Shown here: one piece after another, positions 1 to 4,554 of the stretch | Layout: each line of letters opens with the position of its first letter | Position numbering within the stretch: position 1 is the first letter of the stretch | From: a virus | DNA: 28,628 nt | Reading direction: 5' to 3' (one strand) | Virus record (IMG/VR): IMGVR_UViG_3300033571_003546 | Coordinates: 1-28,628 of that record | Made by a program: the position numbers and the translations under genes | The notes under the pieces: generated by a model | Databases searched by the model: none | Told to the model about the DNA's origin: nothing | The model's input: the letters and a program-made list of their open reading frames with translations, nothing else

Positions 1-1490
1 TATCACGTGGTGTTATTAAAGAAACTGCTATTGAGTTTAAGGACTCAACTAGAACAAAACAGATTCCTATTGCCAATGATAGCGAAACATGGGAACAACC
101 TATTGCTCCATTCGGTGGCAAGTATCCATACTCAAAAGTTTATGAAACTGAGTCTGGTCATTTACTTGTTATGGATGATACACCGACTCATGAGAACATT
201 AGTTTATATCATCGTAAAGGAACATTTTTAGACGTTGATGCTAATGGTACTCAAGTTAATAAAATTGTTGGTGATGGATATACAATTGTTGATAAAAACG
301 GATCGATTTATATCGGTGGTCGTTGTTTATTAACTGTTGGTAATGGAGTTAGTATTTTAGTTCAAGGTAACGCTGACATTGAAGTTGAAGGTTCTTCAGT
401 AGTGAATCTAAAAGGACAGGCAGACATCGGTGTTGCTCTTGATTGCAATCTAGCAGTCGGTGGTGATTTAAAAACAAAAGTAGTTGGTGACTTTACCGTT
501 GAAGCTAAAAACATTAATATGATTGCAGAAGAATCTCATAATACATCTGCAGGAACTAGCGTAAATGTTAAAGCTGGTGAGGATATGAATATGCTTGCCA
601 CTGCAAATACTAAAATTACTGCCAATGGTTCAATGAATATTAAATCTGATGGTGCCATGAAAGTTGATTACTCTCGTGGAGATTTCGGTAATGGTGCAGG
701 TGCAGCTGAAGTACAAGATATTCCTGCCACTGGTTTAACTCCTCCAGCAGAAGGTAATCCAAGATCAAATCAATTTGGTTACTTACCGACACCAGTTCGT
801 CCATCACCACCAGTAGAATTAAAATATGCGATCGCAGAAGAAAACGAAGCACTGGTTGACGCATATATTGCAAATCCAGGTGCGTATAGAAATCCAGAAG
901 CTGCGAATAATGGTGTTAAAGAAAACTATGCAGGTACACCTAAGGATGATGGACAAGGTAAGAGTCTTAAGTCAGAATCTGCACCTGGAGATATTCAAGC
1001 ATTCTTACAAAAACAACTTGAACTTACATCTCAAAGTCAATATTGGCGAGAAACAGGTATGGGTGGTAACAAGTCAAATCCTAACATCACTCGAATTTGG
1101 GCAGACTTAGGATACCCAACTTCTGGAATTTGGTCAACGGATCAAACTGCATGGTGTATGGGTTTCATTAACTATACATTAAAACAATGCGGTTATCGTT
1201 ATGTTCAAACTGCATCTGCCAAAGAAATAGGAAATAACCCTCAACGCTGGAATGCCACAAAGGTATCAATCGAAGACGCACAGCCTGGAGATATCGTCCT
1301 TTGGAATTTCAGTCACGTAAACTTTGTTTATACTGCAAGAGACGGAAAGCTAACATTCGTTGGTGGTAATCAAGGTGGTAAATCTAAAGACAACAACCCA
1401 AGTTCTGGTGATGTTACCATTAGTTGGGCTGGTGGATGGAGTGCTAATCGTGGTGGTATTGTTGGTATCTTTAGACCAAGTAAGAGTTAA
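1..1490 (+). CDS. gp5: Baseplate hub/tail spike (gp5/VgrG-like) with C-terminal NlpC/P60-CHAP-like peptidase domain, 5' partial
   Basis: The reading frame is open from base 3, so the start lies upstream. The first ~100 visible residues resemble the region after the OB fold of gp5/VgrG spikes (PYSKVYETESGHLLVMDDTP, then GTFLDVDANG). About 130 residues rich in short alternating V/G repeats follow, as expected for the trimeric beta-helix needle that pierces the outer membrane. After a Pro-rich linker (about 720-1000) comes a C-terminal domain with a catalytic-type Cys in QTAWCMGF (codon 1155-1157), GDIVLWN, and a His in SHVNFVYT (codon 1314-1316). This Cys/His order fits papain-like amidases/endopeptidases (NlpC/P60, CHAP, TIGR02594-like). 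T4 gp5 instead carries a lysozyme domain between the OB fold and needle, so the enzyme here differs in type and position. Spike identity is firm; the exact peptidase family is inferred. Confidence 0.85.
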   Translation, partial: SRGVIKETAIEFKDSTRTKQIPIANDSETWEQPIAPFGGKYPYSKVYETESGHLLVMDDTPTHENISLYHRKGTFLDVDANGTQVNKIVGDGYTIVDKNGSIYIGGRCLLTVGNGVSILVQGNADIEVEGSSVVNLKGQADIGVALDCNLAVGGDLKTKVVGDFTVEAKNINMIAEESHNTSAGTSVNVKAGEDMNMLATANTKITANGSMNIKSDGAMKVDYSRGDFGNGAGAAEVQDIPATGLTPPAEGNPRSNQFGYLPTPVRPSPPVELKYAIAEENEALVDAYIANPGAYRNPEAANNGVKENYAGTPKDDGQGKSLKSESAPGDIQAFLQKQLELTSQSQYWRETGMGGNKSNPNITRIWADLGYPTSGIWSTDQTAWCMGFINYTLKQCGYRYVQTASAKEIGNNPQRWNATKVSIEDAQPGDIVLWNFSHVNFVYTARDGKLTFVGGNQGGKSKDNNPSSGDVTISWAGGWSANRGGIVGIFRPSKS

Positions 1491-2322: not shown

Positions 2323-2715
2323 ATGGCACGCAACGTAAGAATTTTTTCAGATATTGACCTTAACTTTACTGCTCATCCAGTAACTAAGGACATAACTCGT
2401 AGGTATGATGAAAACGCTGTTAAACAGTCGTTAAAAAGTCTTATCTTAACATCGAACTATGAACGACCATTCCATAGTGAAATCGGTTCTCAAGTTCGTT
2501 CTTTATTATTTGAGCCAGCATCTCCTATTCTTGCTGTTTCTATAAAAAAGTCTATTTTTGACTTAGTAAATAACTTTGAACCAAGAGTAGATCTAATAGA
2601 TGTTTTGGTAGATTTTAACCCAGACGAAAACTATGTATACATTACCATAGAGTTTAAGATTGTTAATACAGAAAGACCTTTAACTCTGGACTTAGTATTA
2701 GAGAGAACACGATAA
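2323..2715 (+). CDS. gp25: Baseplate wedge subunit gp25
   Basis: The 130-residue product matches T4 gp25 (132 residues) and the TssE proteins of type VI systems. It contains the family features EIGSQVRSLLFEP in the middle and the conserved Glu-Pro-Arg at residues 86-88 (NFEPRVDLIDV). This EPR segment packs against gp6 at the inner rim of the wedge, where gp25 links the baseplate to the first sheath ring. Early claims that gp25 is a lysozyme are not supported by its fold. The start is 13 bases after the PAAR stop with little Shine-Dalgarno sequence. The stop TAA is immediately followed by the gp6 ATG, so gp25 and gp6 are translated as a tight pair. Confidence 0.93.
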   Translation: MARNVRIFSDIDLNFTAHPVTKDITRRYDENAVKQSLKSLILTSNYERPFHSEIGSQVRSLLFEPASPILAVSIKKSIFDLVNNFEPRVDLIDVLVDFNPDENYVYITIEFKIVNTERPLTLDLVLERTR

Positions 2716-4554
2716 ATGGCATCCAGCAAAAAAATTAATATAACAGAGCTAGACTTTGATTCAATTAAACAGAATCTTAAAGAGTATTTAAAAGGGCAGA
2801 GCGAGTTTCAAGATTATGACTTTGAGGGATCGGGTCTTGCTGTTCTTTTAGACGTACTAGCCTATAATACTCACTACAATGCTCTTTACGATAACTTAGC
2901 AGTTAATGAGTTATTTTTAGACTCTGCCATTAAAAGAAGCAGTGTTGTTTCTTTGGCTAAAATGCTGGGTTATACTCCTAGATCTGCTAGCTGTGCTGAG
3001 GCGACAGTTAATGTTACTGTGACGTCTGCTGGTGCTGGACCACAAGTTATTACTATCCCAGCGTTTAGTGAATTTACTGCTACTATTGATGGACAAAACT
3101 TTTCGTTTTATAACTTAGAACCGATCACTTCTGCAGCTGGTCCTGCAACTTCATACACAATACCAAATGTAAAAATTACACAAGGTGAACCTCTTTCATT
3201 TAGATTTACTGTTTCTCAAGGTTCACGATATATTATTCCAAACCCAAACGTAGACCTTGACACATTAGCAGTTCGTGTTCAGGAAAATTCTCAAAGTTCT
3301 GAATTTAATACATTCACTCGTTCAACCTCAATAGTAGATGCTGGTGCAACTACTAGAGTTTATTGGGTTAAAGAGATTGATGATGGTTTGTATGAACTAA
3401 CTTTTGGCGATGGTGTTCTTGGTCAAGCATTGGAGAATGGTAATATTGTTAATGTTGACTACATGGTTTCTTCTTTAGACACAGCCAATGGAGCAAGAGT
3501 TTTTAGTTACAATGGATCTCCTCCATATAGTTCTGCCAATGTTTCTGTGTCAACAGTTTCCCCTGCTTTTGGTGGAGCAGAGCCAGAAGAAATTGATAGT
3601 ATTAAATTTAATGCTCCAAGAAATTATGCTGCTCAAAACAGAGCAGTTACTACCGAAGATTACAAAACACTGATTTATAATCAATTTCCAGAAGCATCTT
3701 CTGTTAGTGTGTGGGGTGGTGAAGATAACAATCCACCTGTTTATGGCAAAACATTTATTTGCGTAAAACCTAGATCTGCTACTAAATTAACAAACAGTCA
3801 AAAATCTGAGATAACAAATACTATTTTAACAAGTAGAAACGTAGTCTCAGTTATTCCAGAAATTGTAGATCCAGAGTTTATTAACATTGCTGTTGATTGC
3901 GCAGTATATTACGATCCAAGGGCTACAACTAGAACTCCTCGTGAAATTGAAAACCTAGTTCGTGATACTATTATTAATTATGACAATAATGAACTTCAAA
4001 GATTTGAAGGTATGTTCCGACATTCTAAGTTAAGTCGCTTAATTGATGCCACTGAAAAGGGTATCATAAGCAATAATACAACAGTGTTAATTCGTAGACA
4101 GATTGATCCACGATATAACATTAGTGCACAATATTTACTAAACATTGTAAACCCAATTTATACAAGTGGTATTCCTCAAGATTCAATTAGATCTACTGGA
4201 TTTTTTATCTCAAACACCAACGATACAGTTCATTATCTAGACGATGATGGTGTTGGTAATATTCGTTTATTCTACATTGGTTCTTCTGCTGAAAAGATTA
4301 TCGTAAATCCTACTATTGGAACTGTTGATTATGCAGCAGGTATTATCAATATTAAGAACTTAATAATTGCTGCATTGGCTGGTGTTGATTTTGAACTTAC
4401 TATCAAACCATCATCATATGATGTAGTTTCAGCGTATACACAAATTGCACAAATTGCTAGAGACTATCTAACAATCACAGCAATTCCAGATCAAACTATC
4501 AGTGGCGATACTCGTGCTGGTAAAAATTATGTGTTCTCTTCAAGTCGTTCATAA
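2716..4554 (+). CDS. gp6: Baseplate wedge subunit gp6 (gpJ-like)
   Basis: The product is 612 residues; T4 gp6 is 660. Its N-terminus aligns by eye with T4 gp6: IKQNLKEYLKGQSEFQDYDF, then a conserved LLDVLAYNTHYNALY and RSSVVSLAKMLGYTPRSA. The middle (about residues 290-470) carries the gpJ-like core (NYAAQNRAVTTEDYKTLI). Two gp6 copies plus gp7 form the heterotrimer at the core of each of the six wedges; the gp6 ring changes shape when the sheath contracts. The start abuts the gp25 stop, and the stop overlaps the gp7 start (TAATG). No insertions like those in gp7 and gp8 are evident, in keeping with its inner position. Confidence 0.94.
   Translation: MASSKKINITELDFDSIKQNLKEYLKGQSEFQDYDFEGSGLAVLLDVLAYNTHYNALYDNLAVNELFLDSAIKRSSVVSLAKMLGYTPRSASCAEATVNVTVTSAGAGPQVITIPAFSEFTATIDGQNFSFYNLEPITSAAGPATSYTIPNVKITQGEPLSFRFTVSQGSRYIIPNPNVDLDTLAVRVQENSQSSEFNTFTRSTSIVDAGATTRVYWVKEIDDGLYELTFGDGVLGQALENGNIVNVDYMVSSLDTANGARVFSYNGSPPYSSANVSVSTVSPAFGGAEPEEIDSIKFNAPRNYAAQNRAVTTEDYKTLIYNQFPEASSVSVWGGEDNNPPVYGKTFICVKPRSATKLTNSQKSEITNTILTSRNVVSVIPEIVDPEFINIAVDCAVYYDPRATTRTPREIENLVRDTIINYDNNELQRFEGMFRHSKLSRLIDATEKGIISNNTTVLIRRQIDPRYNISAQYLLNIVNPIYTSGIPQDSIRSTGFFISNTNDTVHYLDDDGVGNIRLFYIGSSAEKIIVNPTIGTVDYAAGIINIKNLIIAALAGVDFELTIKPSSYDVVSAYTQIAQIARDYLTITAIPDQTISGDTRAGKNYVFSSSRS

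Follow-up and report, generated by a model that had tools for sequence, protein, structure and literature searches.

The spike gene and its neighborhood

The window (the whole stretch of viral DNA analyzed here, 28,628 bases, which is also the whole record) begins inside a gene, so that the N-terminal half of the encoded protein is missing. The remaining 495 residues match PHROG 430 (baseplate hub subunit and tail lysozyme; E = 4e-42), and residues 17 to 139 match the T4 gp5 structures 1k28 and 1wth (E of about 2e-18); there were VgrG matches as well. On the basis of the PHROG 430 and T4 structure matches, we assign this open reading frame (ORF) to the C-terminal part of gp5, the central spike protein (Table 1). 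Its VxG-type octad needle is homologous to that of T4 gp5, which places it among the T4-like gp5 proteins, and the gp25 and gp6 genes nearby confirm a T4-like baseplate operon.

A preliminary description of this DNA had read the visible part of the spike as needle repeats, a proline-rich linker and a Cys/His domain, in that order, and this order holds. In the needle (residues 106 to 236), the period-8 autocorrelation is 0.309 compared with a shuffled mean of 0.166, a value reached by none of 20,000 shuffles, and the stretch that follows has 12 prolines in 84 residues. As judged from the pLDDT profile of a structure model, the truly disordered linker comprises only about 34 residues, the rest of the apparent linker, its second half, being predicted as helical and ordered.

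Table 1. Features of the spike locus (positions in the window) and PAAR-peptidase fusions at other loci (positions in the locus named)
Feature	Location	Strand	Basis or remark
gp5 central spike protein, C-terminal 495 aa	3..1490	+	5' end open at contig start; PHROG 430 and T4 gp5 matches
Needle, predicted triple-stranded beta-helix, about 14 octads, residues 106-236	318..710	+	Period 8; T4 gp5 needle and VgrG matches
Needle-end motif VDYSRGDF, presumed PAAR docking end	663..686	+	Variants track adjacent PAAR among lineages; alignment
Predicted disordered linker, residues 230-263	690..791	+	AlphaFold2 pLDDT <50, model residues 1-34
Predicted ordered linker half with helices, residues 264-325	792..977	+	pLDDT mostly 78-91; conserved alongside peptidase in relatives
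Predicted papain-like CHAP/NlpC (TIGR02594-like) peptidase domain, residues 327-495	981..1487	+	Profile matches, AlphaFold2 fold
Predicted catalytic Cys385 (AWC)	1155..1157	+	Invariant in 30 aligned members; begins helix in model
Predicted catalytic His438 (SHV)	1314..1316	+	Invariant in 30 aligned members; strand follows directly in model
Predicted third catalytic residue Asn456 (GGNQ)	1368..1370	+	Invariant in 30 aligned members
179-aa ORF, predicted Ig-like beta-sandwich and C-terminal helix	1493-2032	+	Overlaps start of PAAR gene
PAAR spike-tip protein, 100 aa	2007-2309	+	PF05488, 33.3 bits vs. cut-off of 27; PHROG 281, E = 1.8e-19
gp25 baseplate wedge gene	2323-2715	+	PF04965; PHROG matches (261 and 219 for the gp25/gp6 pair)
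gp6 baseplate wedge gene	2716-4554	+	PHROG match (261 and 219 for the gp25/gp6 pair)
PAAR with C-terminal M15-type peptidase, PA5oct	L091 3482-4504		
PAAR with C-terminal M15-type peptidase, vB_PpuM-Aura	L101 4476-5483		
PAAR with C-terminal M15-type peptidase, Vibrio 1.244.A	L087 4458-5447		

A predicted papain-like peptidase beyond the needle

The two codons singled out in the preliminary description, at positions 1155 (Cys of AWC) and 1314 (His of SHV), encode residues 385 and 438, and the suggested papain-like peptidase domain was borne out by matches in searches with the TIGR02594, NLPC_P60 and CHAP profiles and by a CHAP/NlpC fold in the AlphaFold2 model. The match of the window protein to TIGR02594 (E = 1.9e-11) scores 44 to 46 bits, under the curated cut-off of 70.55 bits; by profile similarity the window peptidase appears to be related to this family but is not filed as a member of it. 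The Pfam NLPC_P60 match (E = 1.7e-4) lies just below its cut-off, with 22 bits compared with 23 bits. In an alignment of 30 members (A1), in which C385, H438 and N456 are numbered 156, 209 and 227, every member matched TIGR02594 at an E value of 0.01 or lower and 27 matched Pfam CHAP. Even at identities as low as 45%, these members show little or no variation in the Cys, His and Asn residues and in the WC, HVNF and GGNQ motifs.

AlphaFold2 prediction of the peptidase region with alignment A1 gave a mean pLDDT of 79.6 and a pTM of 0.81, with pLDDT below 50 only at model residues 1 to 34 and 232 to 237. In the model, Cys156 starts a helix (156 to 166) and His209 directly precedes a strand (210 to 217), which is how the two residues are placed in the papain-like fold of CHAP and NlpC/P60 enzymes. 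The best Foldseek match was a CHAP endolysin (E = 3.3e-3), and the best VIA-align match was the CHAP endolysin LysIME-EF1 (Z of 9.6 over 128 residues, rmsd of 3.3), with CHAP or NlpC/P60 wall hydrolases making up the top rows (Z of 8 to 9.6). The domain past the needle is thus predicted to be a papain-like CHAP/NlpC cell wall peptidase.

Most full-length relatives carry another enzyme above the needle

A scan of IMG/VR yielded 97 confirmed relatives, and we retained 80 of them. Among these, 57 gp5 relatives are complete at both ends (L059 was excluded as not being gp5), and classification of their tips by motif gave 39 of CHAP/NlpC type, 12 of M15 type and 6 left unclassified by the strict patterns; four of the latter (L046 to L049) end in the same GGNQ-type domain as the CHAP/NlpC group when read by eye, and L047 is a Pfam CHAP match. 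Full-length relatives with a tip enzyme are mostly 890 to 1,088 aa long and start with a Gp5_OB domain, which scores E values of 1e-23 to 1e-26 in those with 57 to 70% identity over the window part.

A GH19-type motif, GRG[FY][NI]Q[LI]T, lies between OB fold and needle in 39 of the 57 complete relatives. The motif scan did not find it in L050 and L052 to L058, and in L072 another lysozyme-like sequence was noted by eye. With the Pfam GH19 profile, L016 scored 25.6 bits (cut-off, 25.5) and other relatives were weaker; gp5 of Synechococcus phage BUCT-ZZ01 reached 35 bits and matched solved endolysins at an E value of 4e-13.

Since a hydrolase is retained between OB fold and needle in the majority of full-length relatives, the tip peptidase is in most of them a second, additional enzyme. 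We considered and rejected a relocation of the hydrolase from its T4 position to the tip, given that most full-length relatives have an enzyme at each of the two sites. The contrast with T4, whose hydrolase precedes the needle, was drawn in the preliminary description and turns out to be an artefact of the truncated window. The OB fold and glycosidase of the window phage itself would lie in the 5' half that is cut off, and we infer both from the relatives.

The CHAP/NlpC form past a gp5 needle was seen only in uncultured contigs. A search of five large relatives for psbA, a sign of a cyanobacterial host, gave no match, which is not decisive. Three candidates for the same architecture were set aside: PHROG 1259, with only two short, weak matches in eight named records; CRW-SP2 (Ackermannviridae), where CHAP follows the OB fold; and ICP1, where the matching gene encodes a free protein of 238 aa. 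A tip enzyme is not universal among near relatives: in the Pelagibacter phages Mosig (L104) and HTVC008M (L106), gp5, only 364 to 380 aa long, consists of an OB fold followed by the needle at its end, and we recognised no enzyme domain in it.

M15-type peptidases in the same slot and on PAAR

In L063 to L080, an M15-type domain follows the needle, and its metal-ligand motifs, SxHxxGxAxD and WIHxS, are invariant in all 10 aligned proteins. A PDB sequence search with this domain gave no match. A tblastn search with the L072 tip found the M15-type domain at the gp5 C terminus of the named phages pf16, BUCT-ZZ01, Melnitz and Cr30. The gp5 protein of Caulobacter phage Cr30 (YP_009098974) resembles the architecture described here in its order of OB fold, lysozyme (Phage_lysozyme2, E = 5.5e-29 at residues 130 to 269), needle (match at 331 to 421) and C-terminal peptidase, with a PAAR gene directly downstream, so that one isolate combines PAAR, tip peptidase and lysozyme; it differs in that the peptidase is an M15-type zinc enzyme, and its annotation says no more than baseplate hub subunit and tail lysozyme. 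BUCT-ZZ01 gp5 likewise has OB fold, GH19, needle and C-terminal peptidase, and differs in the M15 type of the last. The tip-enzyme spike is therefore already present in its M15 form, unremarked, in named phage records; in the papers on pf16 and Melnitz, the passages found say nothing of a tip peptidase. We found no description of a phage gp5 with a peptidase beyond the needle in the literature, mostly non-subscription papers, which is weak evidence for novelty. In Methylophilales phage Melnitz-1 (L088 1581-4624), gp5 seems to be split into two adjacent ORFs, one with OB fold and a VanY-like domain (by eye) and the next with needle and M15-type tip.

The M15-type peptidase also occurs at the C terminus of PAAR proteins, in PA5oct, Vibrio 1.244.A and Pseudomonas putida phages (Table 1); the PA5oct record notes mass-spectrometric detection. 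The genomes of PA5oct and the P. putida phages are about 200 to 287 kb in size, and a review of jumbo phages describes PAAR proteins as stand-alone and unfused (PMC7824862), a generalisation that does not fit, because these phage records show PAAR-M15 fusions.

The recurrence of two peptidase types in one slot bears on whether the enzyme stays on the spike. Maturation of T4 gp5 includes a cleavage between lysozyme and needle, and with this precedent a similar cut might free the peptidase to work on its own, as an enzyme of the virion or of lysis, leaving a needle that binds PAAR as in T4. The disordered linker that AlphaFold2 places between needle and peptidase would suit such a cut, as would the occurrence of the same peptidase as a free protein of 275 to 290 aa at about 70 loci of other phages, and the domains of T4 gp5 are joined by long linkers (PMC4576200). 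We nevertheless regard release as unlikely: the fusion persists in spikes that have diverged widely and involves two peptidase folds that are unrelated, the motif TPVRPxP and the second linker half are conserved in the alignment of relatives, and no cleavage site was identified.

PAAR, the needle end and the intervening ORF

The PAAR gene had been described as lying next to the spike gene; it is indeed nearby, and its identity is backed by PF05488, but it is the second gene downstream of gp5, because the 179-aa ORF intervenes. Most loci have the order gp5, 179-aa ORF, PAAR, gp25 and gp6. Where the contig extends that far, the 179-aa ORF never occurs without PAAR, and three lineages have PAAR without the ORF. 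The model of the 179-aa protein (mean pLDDT of 86.7) resembles many unrelated Ig and cadherin domains (Z of 7 to 8.5), matches too unspecific to yield a function, and searches of Pfam, PHROGs and NCBIfam gave no family match. Gene order and co-occurrence lead us to guess that the protein may be an accessory of the PAAR tip. A layout like that of the window is found in Prochlorococcus phage P-HM1 (L094 3971-4772), where PAAR lies near gp25 and overlaps an upstream ORF annotated as a toxin; the P-HM1 ORF was rejected as a relative of the 179-aa ORF, since the two have no sequence similarity.

The needle end varies together with PAAR. All 17 lineages in which a PAAR gene is adjacent have the motif [VIL]D[YG]...G[QD][EFQ], as opposed to none of the 5 lineages in which it is not (Fisher p = 4e-5, only indicative because the motif was chosen after seeing the alignment and the lineages are related). 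In these five peptidase lineages, gp25 comes next and no PAAR gene is adjacent (partial contigs may hide one elsewhere); a Pfam search of the whole L057 contig (172,991 bases) found no PAAR. Compared with their near relatives, L034 and L035 are without the distal motif octads, the 179-aa gene and PAAR and have kept linker and peptidase, and this lineage appears to have lost needle tip, Ig-like ORF and PAAR together. In T4, the PAAR protein gp5.4 is bound by the last beta-strand of gp5 (PMC4576200). Because the needle-end motif tracks PAAR and the peptidase can persist without PAAR, we suggest that PAAR probably caps the needle, with three peptidases hanging beside it. The preliminary description had foreseen a conflict between PAAR and peptidase at the tip; the two coexist in most relatives, and the conflict disappears if the three chains pass PAAR on a flexible linker.

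The C-terminal peptidase might instead have taken over the role of the tip, with PAAR off the needle, at another baseplate position or as the product of a remnant gene. The lineages without adjacent PAAR and the L057 contig would fit such a replacement. It is quite improbable all the same, as 17 lineages keep PAAR together with the peptidase and retain the needle-end motif too.

A proposed spike with two wall-degrading stations

We consider it likely that the protein is a T4-like gp5 with two wall-degrading stations, a glycosidase above the needle and a peptidase below its tip, and with PAAR as a cap. This reading is based on domain order, homology, predicted fold, conserved catalytic residues, the swap to M15-type enzymes and the co-variation of needle end and PAAR; the trimer geometry, the docking of PAAR beside the peptidase, enzymatic activity and the order of action are what we infer. 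Above the needle, a GH19-type glycosidase would take the place of T4 lysozyme in the majority of full-length relatives, and the CHAP/NlpC cysteine peptidase would hang on a short disordered linker below the tip. The trimeric needle would end in the conserved segment and carry the PAAR protein as its cap, and the three chains would go past PAAR, each with one peptidase. Upon sheath contraction, the PAAR-capped needle may pierce the outer membrane, so that the three peptidases enter the periplasm first and cut stem peptides or amide bonds; the glycosidase would arrive after them and cut the glycan strands.

It is barely credible that the tip domain is instead a papain-like fold that lacks catalysis or does not act on the wall and serves in binding or folding: the profile scores do lie under the curated cut-offs and noncatalytic NlpC/P60 proteins exist, such as RipD (among the VIA-align matches), yet the putative catalytic residues and their motifs are conserved throughout the 30 members, and M15-type peptidases have been swapped into the same slot.

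We also lean, with some reserve, toward a wider reading, in which T4-like spikes have an exchangeable tip slot, filled by either of two unrelated peptidases (CHAP/NlpC or M15-type) on gp5 or, alternatively, by M15 on PAAR; entry would be peptidase first and glycosidase second, phages would share the modularity of evolved VgrG and PAAR proteins, and PAAR could disappear along with the needle end without loss of the peptidase. If true, the principle of the enzyme-tipped spike known from type VI secretion would extend to the entry machines of aquatic T4-like phages, and the lineages would offer a natural test of PAAR binding where the spike chain continues beyond the tip.

Comparison with known systems

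T4 gp5 and gp5.4 (PDB 1k28 and 4ku0) share with the present locus the triple beta-helix, the small PAAR protein, gp25 and gp6 nearby and, here in the relatives, an OB fold and a hydrolase that precede the needle. The T4 protein ends at the needle, whereas here a second enzyme follows, and the first enzyme is T4 lysozyme in T4 and of GH19 type in most relatives.

A resemblance to evolved VgrG proteins, noted from the outset, stands: in both, a C-terminal enzyme lies past a beta-helix. In type VI secretion, Vibrio cholerae VgrG3 carries a peptidoglycan hydrolase, and the metallopeptidase of Pseudomonas aeruginosa VgrG2b is found on VgrG, grafted on PAAR or free, depending on the species (PMC6899460); the occurrence of the VgrG2b enzyme on VgrG or PAAR parallels that of the phage M15 domain on gp5 or PAAR. 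Unlike evolved VgrG, the phage spike lies in a T4-like gp25-gp6 baseplate operon, its role is presumably entry and not killing, and its relatives have a further glycosidase before the needle. No gp27-gp5 fusion in a type VI secretion locus was seen, and the full-length relatives begin with the OB fold. By analogy, the phage spike would work like an evolved VgrG without being one.

The hub protein gp15 of Anabaena phage A-1(L) has endoglucanase and peptidase activity in vitro (PMC10966104). It is similar in placing such a dual activity in the baseplate hub and different in that its enzymes sit on the hub ring, not past the spike tip; the A-1(L) spike ends in a C-terminal loop.

The peptidase as a free protein

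The same peptidase with its linker half also occurs as a free protein of 275 to 290 aa, in L059 (5863-6690, on a contig shared with L118) and at about 70 further loci (e.g., L121, L132, L139, L149, L160 and L183) from phages of other kinds, with contigs of up to 326 kb. A PAAR-like N terminus of the L059 type was rejected: a 96.9% profile match was due to the inclusion of L059 in the PAAR alignment, and the probability fell to 8.8% without it, and there was no Pfam PAAR match. These proteins have a conserved short N terminus, DVYHSxNVYxNNVPVALW, and the L059 gene comes after nrdA, nrdB and a glutaredoxin-like gene.
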